Source: Desulforhabdus amnigena (GTDB lineage: Bacteria > Desulfobacterota > Syntrophobacteria > Syntrophobacterales > Syntrophobacteraceae). From it: 64,000 nt of DNA. Position 1 is the first letter of the stretch, and every line of letters begins with the position of its first letter. Of the stretch, positions 298-7,650 are shown in pieces. The stretch is from positions 3,800,501 through 3,864,500 of the forward strand of contig NZ_BSDR01000001.1 in NCBI RefSeq assembly GCF_027925305.1, written 5' to 3'. Below the pieces are notes generated by a model. The model ran no database searches. It was not told where the DNA came from and was given only the letters and a program-made list of their open reading frames with translations. The position numbers and the translations under genes were made by a program.

Positions 298-1422
298 CTA
301 CTTGAGAACTCTCCCGGGATCGTCTGGGTTCGCCGGTTGGCTTGAGCCGGAAGCGTTTCCCTCGGCAGGAGGCGTCTGCGCCGCGTTGATCAGGTGGATC
401 TGAACTTCCTGTGCATCGCCGGGAGCCGCGTCCGTTTCCACTGAAAGAGATGTCCTTTGCTGGGAACCCGATGGTACATTTTCCATTTTGGGATTGATTT
501 CCAGGATGAATCCATTCTGTTTGTCGATCGGTTGTTGAGTAACCTCAATCATGCGTTGATCGTAGGTCAACTTTGAAATTTTGAAGGGTTTGTTACTGTT
601 GCTCATCACGATGATCTTTCCCATGCGTGTGGGTTGCTGTGCTGCGAGGTTTCCCACCAAAACCGTCTTGGGTTTGACCGCAATCTCCCCTTCTATGTAC
701 CCGCTCACCCGGATGAGAAAATCGGGCTTTTGCTCGAGGTCTGTAGAGCACTTAATGTATCCGGAATAACTTCCCTCTTTCAGCTTGTTGGAGACCTTGA
801 GCTGGTAGTGCTTGCCATCTTCCACCGTTTCCAGTTTATAGCCGATCTGTTCTTCCAAATTGCTTTCCGTTTTCAGGATGTGAAAAGGCTGGACATCCGA
901 TGCAATGTCGATAGTGCTCTCCGAAATCTGATCACTCATCCCCCGAAAGGAAATGTTGTCATTAGGACGAATGTCGATCAGAGTTTTGACCGTTCCCTGC
1001 AGAGCCAGTGTCAAACGGGGAGTCTGCGGGTCATTGCTGATAACGGTTGCATTTTTCTTTACTTTTCCTCGATAGCCTTTCAGGCTTACCTTCATTGTGA
1101 TTTTTCCCTCGCCGCCGGCAGGGATCGCCCTGTCAAACTGGGCAACAGCACAGCCTCACCCGGGGCGGACCTGCTCGATTTGCAGCACTGCCTTGCCAGT
1201 GTTTTTCACCACAAAATCGTGGACGATTTCGCTCCCCTCCATAACCTCGCCGAAGTCAAAAGTGGATTCAGGAACCTGTATGGAAGGAGTGTCCTGAACA
1301 TTGGCGGCAAGTGAAAGCCGGGGAGCCGTGGCTTTCACTGCCGGCAGGTTTCCGGCGCAAGCGATGCTCGTCCACAGGAAACAAAAGAGAATTACAAAAA
1401 AGGAATGAATGAATCGAAACAT
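298..1422 (-). CDS. DUF1573-domain exported protein with in-frame UGA: probable selenoprotein (Sec89)
   Basis: Read through the TGA at 1156-1158, this is one 374-residue protein. Residues 1-23 are a signal peptide (hydrophobic core, then SIACAG). Residues about 50-110 are a DUF1573 domain: FDFGEVMEGSEIVHDFVVKN, then VRPG-U-GCAVAQF, then IPAGGEGKI. In this family the segment after V-R-x-x is normally CGCT; here UGA stands for the first Cys and the second is kept (UGC). The domain runs on without a frame change on both sides of the UGA, so a frameshift or ordinary nonsense mutation is less likely. The C-terminal part has further beta-rich repeats and a Pro/Ser-rich tail. DUF1573 proteins are exported and their biochemical role is unsettled; a U-x-C pair suggests redox or metal chemistry. 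GGAGG lies upstream of the ATG, although spaced somewhat far. The gene stands alone. Confidence 0.82.
1124..1158 (-). promoter_or_regulatory. Candidate bacterial SECIS element next to the UGA of the DUF1573 gene
   Basis: On the minus strand the UGA (1158-1156) is followed after 9 nt by GTTGCCC (1146-1140), a 9-nt loop AGTTTGACA (1139-1131) and GGGCGAT (1130-1124), a 7-bp stem with one or two G-U pairs. The loop starts 16 nt after the UGA and has G in its second position. Bacterial SECIS hairpins recognised by SelB lie inside the coding region right after the UGA at about this distance, usually with a G early in the loop. The fold was drawn by eye; no energy was calculated. Confidence 0.6.
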
Positions 1423-1729: not shown

Positions 1730-3295
1730 CTACTTTTCAGATGGCGAGGGGTGGTTCTTCATGAGTTCACCGGCGGGGACTACGGCAACAGCCTCCTTCT
1801 CAAACAGTTTCGAGGCCTCAAGAAGCACACGGAGAGTGGATTCATGGGGATGACCGATGGCGATGGCAGTGCCTTCGATTTTGGCTTTCCGAATGAGTTG
1901 GTTGATTTGGGAGCGCGTGAAATCCTCTGTCGTAACATGGTCCAGGAAAATGTCCCTCCGTGCGGTGGGAACACGGAAATCCCTGGCTATGGCCATTCCT
2001 ACACTTCGTGGACTGGTGTAACTATCAAGAAAGTACAGGTTTCGCCGGCTCAGCTCCCGGATGAGAATCTTCATGGAGTCCCTGTTTTCTGTGAACCGGG
2101 ATCCCATGTGGTTATTCACTCCAGAGATGTGGAAGCCGGAATCGATTGCAGATTCCAGGGCGTCCTGGATTTTTTTTTCGGACATGGAGAGGAGCAAGGC
2201 TCCCTCCCCTGGATTGGTTTTGGGGTATCCCTGCGGCTCCATGGGGAGGTGGAGGATCACCTCGCGATGGTGATCGTGCACGAGCTTCGCTATTTCCCGG
2301 CTATGGCGTTGATAGGGGAGAATGGAAAAGGTGAGGGGAAGGGGTACCTTGAGAAAATTTTTGGCCATTTCAAGGTTCTGACCAAAATCATCAATTACGA
2401 TCGCTACCTTGGCTACAGGTGCAGTGGGAGACTGCACGGGCGGAGCGGAAGGTTTCAACGCTGGTTTCTGACCGCCTTCGGGGAGGTGCAAGGCAAGGGA
2501 TAGACTCTCTTTGGGGGGGCGGGGCTCGTCCTGCCGTGTTCTGGGTGGGGAAACCGACACCGGGGGTTCCCCGGAAGGGGTAATTGGTTTGAAGGGGGGT
2601 AGAGAAGCGTCGTTTGTCAGGTTGGATTCGGACGAGCTCTTGCCAGGAATCTTCTCGGATGTTCCGGGTTTCGGATGCAGATCCGGCACATCGTCTTTGG
2701 CGGACACTCTGTCTGGCGTGGAGTCTGGTGGTGGCGAAATTTCGGATTCCTTTGTCTCCGCCTCGATGGAATTTCGTATTTCGTTGTAAGATTTCTTCTG
2801 CGCCGGCTGGTCTTCCTTCGGCGGAACCGAAGTCCTGGCCGAAGGCGTCGCCCCTCCGTCTCTTTCCTCCTCGGGCTTCATTGGTTTCAGAGTTTTCGCC
2901 GGTTCTTCCCGGAAAGGAAAAGAATGTGCGGAGGAAGAAGCCTTTGGATCAACAAGTGTGGTAGGGCTTTTGGAATCCGGATTTTGCCGGGAGGATGACG
3001 GGCCTTTTTCTCGAACGGGGGAAGAAGAAGGTTGAATGGATTCCTGCTTTGGAGAAATTTTTTCGGGACCTTCTCCCCAGTAAACCAAACCGGACAGAAC
3101 AACAATGGCGAGCAGCCATAAAGTCAGCAGGGGAAGGAAGAAAGACCTGCGTGTCGCGGTCGAAGGGGATTTGTATCCCCCCCGACCGACTTTACCTGGA
3201 ATCTTCTTTGCGGGGCGTTTTCCTCCTTTGGAAGTGGAAGAACTGCGCCCCGCCGAAGCTTTTTGGGTTTTTTTGGGCGTTGCAGAAGAAGACAT
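1730..3295 (-). CDS. YibQ-like divergent polysaccharide deacetylase (DUF610 family)
   Basis: The protein has 521 residues. A Ser/Lys/Pro-rich cytoplasmic start is followed by one membrane segment (about residues 50-70), a long disordered Pro/Ser/Lys/Glu linker to about residue 290, and a C-terminal domain with KVAIVIDDFGQN, FSILPYQRHS, EVILHLPMEP, GVNNHMGSRFTE and YFLDSYTSPRS. That order is typical of the divergent polysaccharide deacetylase family (YibQ), thought to act on periplasmic glycan; the true substrate is not established. The family often follows envC and ctp genes, as here, 18 bases after ctpA. The linker would let the catalytic domain span the periplasm. No strong ribosome site is visible, so translation is probably coupled to ctpA. 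Confidence 0.85.
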   Translation of the reverse strand: MSSSATPKKTQKASAGRSSSTSKGGKRPAKKIPGKVGRGGYKSPSTATRRSFFLPLLTLWLLAIVVLSGLVYWGEGPEKISPKQESIQPSSSPVREKGPSSSRQNPDSKSPTTLVDPKASSSAHSFPFREEPAKTLKPMKPEEERDGGATPSARTSVPPKEDQPAQKKSYNEIRNSIEAETKESEISPPPDSTPDRVSAKDDVPDLHPKPGTSEKIPGKSSSESNLTNDASLPPFKPITPSGEPPVSVSPPRTRQDEPRPPKESLSLALHLPEGGQKPALKPSAPPVQSPTAPVAKVAIVIDDFGQNLEMAKNFLKVPLPLTFSILPYQRHSREIAKLVHDHHREVILHLPMEPQGYPKTNPGEGALLLSMSEKKIQDALESAIDSGFHISGVNNHMGSRFTENRDSMKILIRELSRRNLYFLDSYTSPRSVGMAIARDFRVPTARRDIFLDHVTTEDFTRSQINQLIRKAKIEGTAIAIGHPHESTLRVLLEASKLFEKEAVAVVPAGELMKNHPSPSEK

Positions 3296-3313: not shown

Positions 3314-4630
3314 CTACTTATTCGAGATGGTTTGGTTCATGATCTTGTAGCCTTTGAGCAGGTCCAGGGCTCTCCGAAGCTGATTGTCTTCCGTCAGCAT
3401 TTTTTGCGTTTCCGCCTGCGTCTCATTCACTTCCGAAGGGGTCTCCTGTTTTTGATTTTCCATATGCCTGGGGAGGTCTTTCTCTCGAATGCGGCGTACT
3501 TCTTCTGTGCTCTCCTCGTCTTCCTTCTGGGGCATTTCACGCTTCACTAAAATATCCGGCTCGATGCCTTTTGCCTGTATGGACCGGCCCGAGGGGGTGT
3601 AATAGAGAGACGTGGTGAGGCGGAGAGCGGAGCCGTCGCTCAAGGGAATTACCGTCTGGACCGATCCCTTGCCGAAGGTGGGTTCTCCTAAAATGAGAGC
3701 TCTCTTGTGATCCTGCAACGCACCGGCCACGATTTCCGAGGCGCTGGCGCTGCCTGAATTGACCAGTACGATAATGGGGTAATCCCGCGGTTTGGAATTC
3801 TTGTGAGCTTCAAACCGCATTTTCTGGCTTTCCAGCCTTCCACCCGTATAAACGATCAACCCCTTGTCCAGGAATTCATCGCTGACCTCGACCGCCTGGT
3901 CCAAAAGCCCGCCGGGATCGTTTCTCAAATCGAGAACCAAACCGTTCAAGGGCCGGTTTTCCTCTTCCAGTTTGTCCAACGCCTTGCGAAGATCGCTGGT
4001 GGTGCCGCTTTGGAAACTGGAGATACGCAGGTATCCATAACCGGGGTCAAGCGTTCTGAACTTAATGCTCTGGATGGCGATAATATCCCGTGTCAATTCA
4101 AATTCCAGGGGCTTGCGCTCTCCCTTCCGAATGATGGTCAGTTTGACCTTGGTACCCTTGGGGCCCCGCATCTTCTGGACGGCATCCATCAAAGACATGT
4201 CCTGAGTCGGCTGGTCGTCGATCTTGATGATTTGATCATTGGCCTGGATGCCTGCCTTGTCCGCCGGGGTGTCCTCAAGAGGCGAGACCACCGTCAGGAC
4301 TCCGTCACGAATAGAGATTTCTATACCGAGCCCTCCGAACTTTCCTTTGGTCTCGATTTGCAGTTCTTTATAGTCTTCAGGTTTCAAGAAGGAAGAGTGA
4401 GGATCCAATTCACGAAGCATTCCGGTAACGGCCCCGTAGATGAGCTTCTTGGATTCCACTTTCTCCACATAGTTGTCCTGGACAATGTTCAGAACATCGC
4501 TGAAGAGTTTTAGATATTGATAAATATCTGAATTCTCAGAGTTTGTTTTGGCTTTGAGGCCTGACCAACCCATGAGCAGGAAAGTGACTCCAGCAATCAG
4601 AATTATTGCCTTTTTTCTTTTTTTCAACAT
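3314..4630 (-). CDS. ctpA: C-terminal processing protease (S41 family, PDZ domain)
   Basis: The protein has 438 residues with an N-terminal membrane anchor or signal (residues 8-24). A PDZ domain (about 90-170, GGLGIEISIRDG and AGIQANDQIIKID) is followed by the S41 catalytic core. The motif NSGSASASEI (291-300) holds the nucleophile, most likely Ser296. Lys321 and Gln325 in FGKGSVQTV complete the Ser-Lys-Gln arrangement, with the same 25-residue Ser-Lys spacing as E. coli Prc. SLYYTPSGRSIQAKGIEPDI is also typical. It should trim C termini of periplasmic substrates such as peptidoglycan enzymes. The charged C-terminal extension (from about 365) is variable in the family. GAGGAAG lies just upstream of the ATG. 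It sits 10 bases after the envC-like gene in one operon. Confidence 0.95.
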   Translation of the reverse strand: MLKKRKKAIILIAGVTFLLMGWSGLKAKTNSENSDIYQYLKLFSDVLNIVQDNYVEKVESKKLIYGAVTGMLRELDPHSSFLKPEDYKELQIETKGKFGGLGIEISIRDGVLTVVSPLEDTPADKAGIQANDQIIKIDDQPTQDMSLMDAVQKMRGPKGTKVKLTIIRKGERKPLEFELTRDIIAIQSIKFRTLDPGYGYLRISSFQSGTTSDLRKALDKLEEENRPLNGLVLDLRNDPGGLLDQAVEVSDEFLDKGLIVYTGGRLESQKMRFEAHKNSKPRDYPIIVLVNSGSASASEIVAGALQDHKRALILGEPTFGKGSVQTVIPLSDGSALRLTTSLYYTPSGRSIQAKGIEPDILVKREMPQKEDEESTEEVRRIREKDLPRHMENQKQETPSEVNETQAETQKMLTEDNQLRRALDLLKGYKIMNQTISNK

Positions 4631-4640
4631 AAGGACTTCC

Positions 4641-5810
4641 TCACTCTTTCGAAAAATTATGAACCGCCAACCATTCCATGGGATTAACCGCTTTTCCGTA
4701 ATGCCTCAATTCAAAATAGAGCTTCGCTCCATCGGGAGAACCGGAATTTCCAACACACGCAATTTTCTCGCCTGCTTCTACACTATCTCCCACTTGTTTA
4801 TGGAGCTGGTCAGCATGGGCAATCAGGCTGTAGTAATGATCTCCGTGATCGATAATCATCACTTTTCCGTATTCTTTGAACCAGTCGGCATAGACCACGA
4901 TGCCGCCATGAATAGCCTGCACCGGTTGCCCTTTCGGGGCCAGGAGGACTATCCCGTTTTGATATAAGGAATGCGTGTAGGTTTCTGTCCCCGATTTATA
5001 AGTATGAATCACCTTCCCAGGAGTGGGAAGCGGCAACGTCCCCTGAAGTGTAGAAAAGGTCTTTGAACGAAAATCAAAGATGGGTTTTCGGTAAAAAGCT
5101 TTTTCGCCCAGTCTCTTCTGACTTTCAATAAATTTTGTATTATACTGTGCATAAAGGCCCTCCTCCAGACGAACCTGCTTCAGAAGTTCAGCCTTCTGCT
5201 CCTGTACGGCTAGAATTTCTCGCTCGTGAGCCTCCTTTTGAAACTTCAGCGCATTGAATCGGTCACCCATCTGAGAAAGTATTTTTTCGAAATTCTCGAT
5301 TTCAGCCTGCTTTTGTTGGTGGACTTTTAGGATTCGTTGGTCCTCCTCCATAATCCTTGCCGCAGTGTAGCCTCCCCTGATGGCGCCGTTTGATCCGGCG
5401 GCAGTGAGCAAAGAAATTGCATAGCCCATTTGCTTGAACTTGTAAAGAGTCACCAACCTGGCTTTCACCAAATCGCTCAACCGCTGGGTGTATCCCCGTA
5501 AATTGTTCAATGTGTCCAGAATATCCGCCTGTTCCACTTCCAGTCTTTTCATCTCGTTTGAAGCCTCTTCCTTTTGGGAGACAAGCTGGGGCAACCTTTC
5601 GTCCAATTGGTTGAGCTGATTCACCAGAGCCTCTTTTTTTTCCGGGGGCATGGGGATGTGCGCACTTTGATTCGTCTCCCCCGCCGAAAGGGGAGGGGAA
5701 GATGCCGGATTTTCCTGGGCGCTGCAAGTTCTTGTCGTAAAGACTGGATTCACTGATGCAAATGCCGACAGGTAAAGGAAAACAACCAATGTCGTTAACG
5801 GTGCAGTCAC
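4641..5810 (-). CDS. envC: EnvC-like murein hydrolase activator (degenerate M23/LytM domain)
   Basis: This 389-residue exported protein starts at a GTG three bases after ftsX, with a signal peptide in residues 1-31. Residues about 55-250 are a long coiled coil of the kind that docks on FtsX. Residues about 275-385 are a LytM (M23) domain. Active M23 enzymes need HxGxD and HxH; here the matching places read LYQNGIVLL and KLYFELR, so the zinc ligands are lost. That is expected for EnvC-type activators, which switch on amidases instead of cutting the wall themselves. Placement directly after ftsEX supports this role strongly. Confidence 0.9.
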   Translation of the reverse strand: MTAPLTTLVVFLYLSAFASVNPVFTTRTCSAQENPASSPPLSAGETNQSAHIPMPPEKKEALVNQLNQLDERLPQLVSQKEEASNEMKRLEVEQADILDTLNNLRGYTQRLSDLVKARLVTLYKFKQMGYAISLLTAAGSNGAIRGGYTAARIMEEDQRILKVHQQKQAEIENFEKILSQMGDRFNALKFQKEAHEREILAVQEQKAELLKQVRLEEGLYAQYNTKFIESQKRLGEKAFYRKPIFDFRSKTFSTLQGTLPLPTPGKVIHTYKSGTETYTHSLYQNGIVLLAPKGQPVQAIHGGIVVYADWFKEYGKVMIIDHGDHYYSLIAHADQLHKQVGDSVEAGEKIACVGNSGSPDGAKLYFELRHYGKAVNPMEWLAVHNFSKE

Positions 5811-5813
5811 TTT

Positions 5814-6707
5814 TCAAAATCTCACACTCTTTTTCAGAGCAAGCCATGAGCCGGTCCAACCGACCACGATACCGGAAGTCAAAAGCACCAAAGCGATCAG
5901 TGCCATTTGGGAGGACTTCATAGGGATGGCCGACACGAGCAAATCGGGCAGGGCCGGTCTGAATTGAAAGAAGAAAAAGATCAAACCGCCGGTTGCAAGA
6001 AACGAACTCGTCATTCCCAGAAGAATGCCTGCCATATAGAAGGGCAATTTATTGTAAATAGGGGGCGCTCCCACCAGGTTGTATATCACCACCGTGTCAT
6101 GACAAACACAAACAGTCGTTCTGCCGATGCCAAAGATAATGAGGATGGAGACAAGAGTGATGAAGCCCATCCCCCCGAACTCTATATATTTCAACAAATT
6201 TATAAATAATTTTACCTCTTTTGACTGCCCTTTTCCATAGAGGACTTCGTCAACTTGCGGATATTGTCTGATTTTTTCTATAAGGGCGTCGGTTCCTTCC
6301 GCCGCCGCTATTTTGGAATGGAATTCAATGTCCAGGGAGGAGGGAAGGAAGTTGTCGCCAAGGTCTTGCAAAATCCCTTTCATTTGCCCCAGCAGGCTTT
6401 CCATTTCCTTTCGCGCATCTTCTTTCGATTTGAGGGAAACCGTTTTGATTTCAGGCCAGGATTTCAGTTCCTGGGCAAGGCGATCCTGTTCCTGGGCAGA
6501 TGCTCCGGGACGAAAATAGATTGTCGCTCTGTCGTTCTCCATCCATGAAGGAGCCACGATCTCCGAGGTCATGAAAGCCAGACATAGAAGGCCCTGGACA
6601 AAGAAACAGAGTGAGAGAGCAAGGAAGCCTGCGGTCCAGGAAATAGCGTCTGAACAAAGACTGTCCCAAGTGCGTTCCAGAAGAAGAGTGAAGATTTTTT
6701 TGTTCAT
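5814..6707 (-). CDS. ftsX: Cell-division ABC transporter membrane subunit FtsX
   Basis: From the ATG encoding MNKKIFTL the protein has 297 residues; an in-frame ATG at 6758 would add 17. There is one membrane segment near the N terminus, an extracytoplasmic domain of about 120 residues (containing ATIYFRPGASAQEQDRLAQ), and three C-terminal membrane segments, the standard FtsX topology. The extracytoplasmic domain normally binds the EnvC coiled coil, and that partner is the next gene. The gap to the end of ftsE is about 125 bases, which is wide for a pair that usually overlaps, so the longer start at 6758 stays possible. Neither start has a clear ribosome site. Confidence 0.9.
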   Translation of the reverse strand: MNKKIFTLLLERTWDSLCSDAISWTAGFLALSLCFFVQGLLCLAFMTSEIVAPSWMENDRATIYFRPGASAQEQDRLAQELKSWPEIKTVSLKSKEDARKEMESLLGQMKGILQDLGDNFLPSSLDIEFHSKIAAAEGTDALIEKIRQYPQVDEVLYGKGQSKEVKLFINLLKYIEFGGMGFITLVSILIIFGIGRTTVCVCHDTVVIYNLVGAPPIYNKLPFYMAGILLGMTSSFLATGGLIFFFFQFRPALPDLLVSAIPMKSSQMALIALVLLTSGIVVGWTGSWLALKKSVRF

Positions 6708-6831
6708 CGAGTGTTCTAGTTTTGGAAAACCCTGGAAGGCCGGTGTAGGCCTTTCCATCCGGTTGGTTTCACTGGGCTGAGAGGGGTTGGTGTCAGCCGA
6801 GCCGCTTCGTTGTGGAAATCATCGGAAACGT

Positions 6832-7521
6832 TCATGAAGATGGAGACGAAGCGGTTTGTTCTATGAGTCTCCCCTGGTGAAGGACCACTACGCGGCTTTG
6901 GGGAACCATGGCCGGTAGCGATGCATTGTGTGTAGTCAAAACCACCGTTGTGCCGATGATCCGCATATCGTCCAACAATCTCAATACCTGCCGCACTTCC
7001 TGGGCATCCAGGCTTGCCGTCGGTTCATCACCCAAAAAGATCACCGGATCGTTTACGACCGCCCGTGCAATAGCGACCCTCTGTTGCTCCGCTGCCGATA
7101 GATGTCCGCATGGAACGTCAGCTTTTTGATCCAGGTTCAAATCGCTGAGGATCGTGTGCACCCTCTTTTGGATGAAAAGATCGTCTCTGCCGACAATTTC
7201 GAGGGGTAGAGCAACGTTTTTGAAAACACTCTTGTGTGTCAGGAGTTTGAAATCCTGAAAAACGGTTCCCACCTCTCTCCTGAAATAGGGTACTTCCCTG
7301 GGCGTGAGTTGGGAAATGTCTTTTCCCTCGATAAAGATGTGGCCGCGATCAAGGGGCGTCAGGCCGAAAAGCGCCTTCAGAAAGGTACTCTTGCCGGACC
7401 CGCTTTTTCCCAGCAGAAAGACGAAGTCCCCCTGAAAGATTTCCAGGTTGATATCCTGTAAAACAGGGTTTGGAGAGTCATACGTTTTGAAAACATGAAG
7501 GCACTGAATCAAACACATCAT
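6832..7521 (-). CDS. ftsE: Cell-division ATP-binding protein FtsE with altered signature motif
   Basis: From MMCLIQCLHVFK (starts at 7521 or 7518) the protein is about 229 residues, the usual FtsE length; the frame is open further up to 7650 but that extension does not look like FtsE. The Walker A motif is GKSGSGKST, the Q-loop VFQDFKLL, Walker B VIFLGDEPTASLD, and the H-loop TTHN. The ABC signature reads LSAAEQQR instead of the normal LSGGEQQR: both glycines have become alanines. The signature glycines contact the ATP gamma-phosphate, so hydrolysis may be slow or impaired. FtsE drives FtsX to activate wall hydrolysis through EnvC at the septum. Confidence 0.93.
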   Translation of the reverse strand: MMCLIQCLHVFKTYDSPNPVLQDINLEIFQGDFVFLLGKSGSGKSTFLKALFGLTPLDRGHIFIEGKDISQLTPREVPYFRREVGTVFQDFKLLTHKSVFKNVALPLEIVGRDDLFIQKRVHTILSDLNLDQKADVPCGHLSAAEQQRVAIARAVVNDPVIFLGDEPTASLDAQEVRQVLRLLDDMRIIGTTVVLTTHNASLPAMVPQSRVVVLHQGRLIEQTASSPSS

Positions 7522-7650
7522 ATGCTGATCGAGACCATCGTGAACAGGGCAGTGCGCTTGAGGCAAAGGTGAATTTTTTGCATTCTTCCAAGGGCTAAAG
7601 TTTTGACATTCTTCATCGGGGATCCGGACGAGCGAAGGCTCCCAATGCAA

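Follow-up and report, generated by a model that had tools for sequence, protein, structure and literature searches.

Gene, product and locus

The gene at positions 298–1422 lies on the minus strand, and so reads from 1422 to 298, of a 64,000-nucleotide stretch of the Desulforhabdus amnigena genome (the window, part of a genome that forms one contig of 4.54 Mb). The original prediction did not give this strand. With TGA translated as selenocysteine (Sec), the minus strand yields a product of 374 residues that ends at a TAA codon (300–298) and holds a single internal TGA at codon 89 (1156–1158), and the predicted passage of the frame across this codon without shift is confirmed, as is the motif V-R-P-G-U-G-C-A around it. 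The Pfam family DUF1573 (PF07610) matches residues 49–145 with 74.8 bits against a gathering cut-off of 26.1, and this match spans the TGA; the codon falls on the first cysteine of the CGC motif with family sequence on both sides, as had been proposed. The second residue of the U-x-C pair is Cys91 (TGT, 1150–1152), assigned from the translation and from homologue comparison. The NCBIfam model for the OS_HP2 (seleno)protein, NF041425, is matched with 126.4 bits against a curated cut-off of 100, and the feature that marks this family, Sec or Cys at the first position of a U/C-G-C motif, is represented here by the TGA of codon 89. By eye, the N-terminus is a predicted signal peptide of the Sec export type with an AxA-like site (MFRFIHSFFVILFCFLWTSIACA/G; 1354–1422, minus strand), in which sequence inspection revealed no canonical lipobox.

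Upstream on the same strand follow a divergent polysaccharide deacetylase of the YibQ type (1730–3295), an S41/PDZ carboxy-terminal protease of the CtpA type (3314–4630), and an M23 peptidase of the EnvC type with FtsX and FtsE (4641–7650). The synteny with yibQ and ctpA is kept in Syntrophobacteraceae: these two genes precede the OS_HP2 gene, ftsE, ftsX and envC are often present farther upstream, and a rhodanese gene lies opposite. In the window, the 3' end of this convergent rhodanese gene, whose product has an N-terminal membrane stretch, occupies 1–106 of the plus strand. The window gene is flanked by genes of the cell envelope and by this rhodanese gene, and neither CcdA nor thioredoxin is found among its neighbours. 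A plasmid search gave no match.

Conservation and decoding of the selenocysteine codon

Among 95 domain matches from 56 genomes of the same class, 80 contain exactly one TGA by hand count, and the equivalent of codon 89 is TGA in most relatives. Cysteine at this site, which the original prediction expected in homologues, is found in several of them (L005/L061, L018/L071, L101, L111, L114, L118, L124, L126 and L128). Sporadic exceptions also occur: one genus has Thr-Gly-Cys (L072/L020) and Ser-Gly-Trp (L023), and other losses have led to Cys-Gly-Thr (L156, L158) or Trp (L172). A sequencing error for TGC or TGT is ruled out by the same TGA being kept across many independent genomes. The decoding machinery anticipated in the earlier work is likewise present in the host genome, with profile matches above cut-off for selA (620 bits), selB (383 bits) and selD (404 bits), and a tRNA-Sec of 72.9 bits with anticodon TCA. 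A second match to the tRNA-Sec model (L039) was rejected, as ARAGORN assigns it as tRNA-Trp. The host selD (G000:C1:1265998-1266918, L055) has an in-frame TGA of its own, a familiar trait of selenophosphate synthetases. On comparative grounds, we regard the decoding of UGA 89 as Sec as shown.

Candidate SECIS hairpin

Directly downstream of the codon lies a candidate SECIS element (1121–1158, minus strand), defined by covariation and composed of the UGA, a stem of seven positions (1146–1140 with 1130–1124) that starts 9 nt past the TGA, a loop of 9 nt, and GG/CC pairs between 1155–1154 and 1122–1121. The GG directly after the TGA is present in 66 distinct Sec sequences. In 60 gap-free Sec homologues, the stem positions pair in 89.6% of cells, against 40–58% in slid controls, and double-sided changes number 26 cells, against 11.2 ± 2.7 in shuffles. 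Both partners of the pair between alignment columns 15 and 33 are third codon positions; this pair is formed in 54 of the 60 sequences (32.6 expected), with GC, UA, CG, GU, AU and UG each represented, a pattern that selection at the protein level would not easily explain. Pairing amounts to 59% overall in the Cys homologues, and columns 15 and 33 pair in 3 of 13 non-Sec sequences, which indicates that the stem-loop decays where Sec is replaced and that the Cys homologues have no SECIS-like covariation. In L072 the TGA has become ACA (Thr) and the stem is intact; we read this as a recent Sec loss with a fossil hairpin. The element is also seen in 26 short paralogs, which played no part in defining the stem and show 80.8% pairing against 31–50% in slid controls. 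An RNAalifold consensus did not recover the hairpin, perhaps because of a register shift in a few sequences, and direct pair counting was used in its place. The window hairpin by itself is not unusually stable (z of –1.52 and –0.35).

Fold and domain architecture

An AlphaFold2 model built with 47 homologues (mean pLDDT 91.7; model residue numbers plus 23 give the full-protein numbering used here) comprises three Ig-like domains. Domain 1 (residues 49–145; 988–1278) is the DUF1573 domain, supported by Pfam, model and fold comparison, and holds the UGC motif in a PapD/ASH-like Ig fold. Domain 2 (residues 147–244; 691–984) and domain 3 (residues 245–348; 379–690), all three being encoded on the minus strand, are Ig-like by model and fold comparison and carry no family name. 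Domain 1 resembles HYDIN (PDB code 2e6j, Z 10.7) and VesC (PDB code 6bqm, Z 11.5) in fold, in agreement with a Pfam match to PF22544 of 42.2 bits; a sequence search of the PDB returned no relative. Sec89 is modelled in a surface turn of domain 1 between strands 80–87 and 92–96, and the loop that joins strands 105–113 and 119–129 holds Tyr117. With the usual Ig topology, these two loops would share one end of the domain.

Short paralogs and a possible relocation of the partner cysteine

Short proteins with one DUF1573 domain occur in the class, and two are encoded by the host genome. These host OS_HP2 selenoproteins, one with UGS (G000:C1:1251306-1251782, L032) and one with UGC and a one-residue gap (G000:C1:92802-93191, L033), both carry an extra cysteine, and with 83 and 78 bits they score below the NF041425 cut-off. 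Most of the short forms fetched keep Sec and have Ser, Thr, Leu, Val or Ile, mostly Ser or Thr, in place of the cysteine at +2. A cysteine occupies the position of Tyr117 (1072–1074, minus strand), which lies 28 residues past Sec89, in 32 of the 35 aligned short forms. Among the Sec forms examined, 73 have the +2 cysteine only, 30 have Cys117 only (29 by pairwise alignment, and L163, in which MAFFT placed the cysteine), four have both and none has neither. Two short proteins with Cys for Sec (L156, L158) are also without Cys117. It is suggested by these distributions that the cysteine which probably pairs with Sec has moved to another loop in the short sisters. The tree accounts for the pattern with one to three changes at +2 and two at 117, and because these events are few, the relocation is suggestive rather than proven.

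Neighbourhoods of related loci

Ten related loci (L069, L070, L093, L103, L104, L106, L108, L113, L115 and L129) have neighbours of redox or arsenic type, in varying subsets of CcdA/DsbD, thioredoxin, Acr3, an ArsP-type permease, DGC, ArsR, an ArsC-like protein and rhodanese/DoxX. L070 has one gene set on each side, L069 has thioredoxin and CcdA only, and L108 has Acr3 only. At L103, L104, L106, L115, L093, L070 and L129, OS_HP2 selenoprotein genes lie near an Acr3 arsenite efflux gene, most of them together with CcdA and thioredoxin. The ten loci come from several parts of the tree and imply five changes, at least two of which are forced by strong branches. About 8 of 79 loci, again from several separate parts of the tree, encode CcdA within 5 kb, nearly always together with thioredoxin. 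Such proximity would be rare by chance, at an estimate of 3e-9 that treats the loci as independent and ignores their kinship. The host genome has the same CcdA/thioredoxin pair far from the window, where it adjoins a gene for a methyltransferase resembling ArsM by sequence.

Two further arrangements were observed. Mid-length forms from Desulfobacterales, at twelve loci among L091–L119, adjoin genes resembling, by sequence only, rex (redox-sensing repressor) and rnhA. At L137:3040-5085, some 7 kb away from the OS_HP2 gene, a YeeE-type sulfur transporter is fused to three rhodanese domains.

Proposed function and alternatives

We propose that the exported OS_HP2 selenoprotein is a periplasmic selenenylsulfide redox protein with a Sec89–Cys91 pair that is reduced by CcdA and thioredoxin, a role to which we assign a probability of roughly 0.55. 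On the comparative evidence, UGA 89 is read as Sec by means of the hairpin directly downstream and the SelA, SelB, SelD and tRNA-Sec of the genome. After export, Sec would be exposed in the surface turn of the PapD/ASH-like Ig domain, where Sec89 and Cys91 could form a reversible selenenylsulfide, and the protein would act as a periplasmic thiol/selenol oxidoreductase. Its reduced state may be kept by a membrane protein of the CcdA/DsbD type together with a periplasmic thioredoxin, and domains 2 and 3 may be spacers or partner-binding Ig domains. As to the substrate, arsenic- or sulfur-related thiol chemistry is a first guess.

For the family as a whole, a broader proposal can be made, to which we give slightly less than an even chance. 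OS_HP2 would be a redox protein of the periplasm that works through a selenenylsulfide and has an Ig-like scaffold in place of a thioredoxin-like one; in the short branch (UG[S/T]...C) the resolving cysteine would have moved from the turn (+2) to the facing loop (+28), and some lineages would have drawn the family into modules of CcdA, thioredoxin and arsenite efflux.

The main rival is metal(loid) binding, in which Sec89 and Cys91 (Cys117 in the short forms) would hold a soft metal(loid), for example As(III), Cu(I) or Hg(II), and the protein would be a periplasmic chaperone, sensor or scavenger. A U-x-C pair is well suited to soft metals, the shift of one ligand might be tolerated by a metal site as well, and several relatives are encoded beside Acr3 (TIGR00832, above cut-off), an ArsP-type permease, ArsR and an ArsC-like protein. 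However, the same clusters hold thioredoxin and CcdA, a pair with a redox function, L069 has this pair and no ars gene within its examined stretch, and the window gene is away from ars genes. We consider metal(loid) binding unlikely, and lean towards redox, to which the relocated cysteine of the short paralogs and the CcdA/thioredoxin neighbours would both point.

A role as sulfur or selenium carrier appears less probable still. In this reading, the rhodanese next door, which has a membrane stretch, would donate sulfane sulfur to Sec, and Sec would hand it on. Related rhodaneses adjoin or lie near OS_HP2 genes in the window and at L058, L059, L061, L063, L065, L070, L103, L104 and L082, three of the rhodanese-bearing loci have DoxX/MauE, and the transporter–rhodanese fusion some 7 kb away fits the same picture. 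On the other hand, the rhodanese gene is convergent in Syntrophobacteraceae and not co-transcribed, it is missing from many loci, and rhodaneses are common in this region. Finally, a reading of the TGA as a genuine stop or as a frame error, with a separate downstream gene from the ATG at 1095, is highly improbable, since, although the standard code gives two open reading frames (88 and 265 residues), a single DUF1573 domain crosses the TGA, the codon is kept in dozens of genomes, the hairpin covaries at silent sites and the sel machinery is complete.

Comparison with known systems

The TsoB-type rhodanese/DsbD selenoprotein (NF045694) by its family name also joins rhodanese, DsbD and selenium. 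This is a different protein, and the cluster rhodanese matches it weakly (33 bits against a cut-off of 805). For the Ig domains of the HYDIN/ASH/PapD-like group (PF22544; PDB codes 2e6j and, for VesC, 6bqm), the likeness concerns the fold of domain 1 only. The Cys proteins of DUF1573 (PF07610) have the same domain with C-G-C at the same place, but they have Cys for Sec and are without SECIS-like covariation.

The suspicion that a UGC-type selenoprotein of this kind might already be known proved right: it is OS_HP2 (NF041425), treated in papers from 2008 to 2026. The 2008 ocean survey lists OS_HP2 with pfam07610 and UxC (PMC2398784), reviews include DUF1573 with the motif UGC among the selenoproteins (PMC9312934; PMC13188914), and the latter cites Zhang and Gladyshev 2007, on an Olavius algarvensis symbiont, for the DUF1573 selenoprotein. 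Because the NCBIfam cut-off is passed and DUF1573 UGC selenoproteins have been published, the selenoprotein claim is not new, and the window gene is a well-supported further member of a known family, for which we found no assigned function. With OS_HP2 the long form shares the domain, the UGC motif and the Sec at the first Cys, without difference. Many short forms, in contrast, have UGS or UGT and the new cysteine, and fall outside the 'UGC' of the reviews. Genomes of this bacterial family each hold several such sisters, which can score below the NCBIfam cut-off, as both short proteins of the host do, so that selenoproteome counts may be too low. What looks new is the cysteine moved to another loop in the sister genes and the occurrence of relatives in arsenic and thiol-redox clusters. 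The comparative work leads to a testable mechanism, a Se–S pair with a subfamily-specific partner cysteine and CcdA/thioredoxin as its likely reductant.
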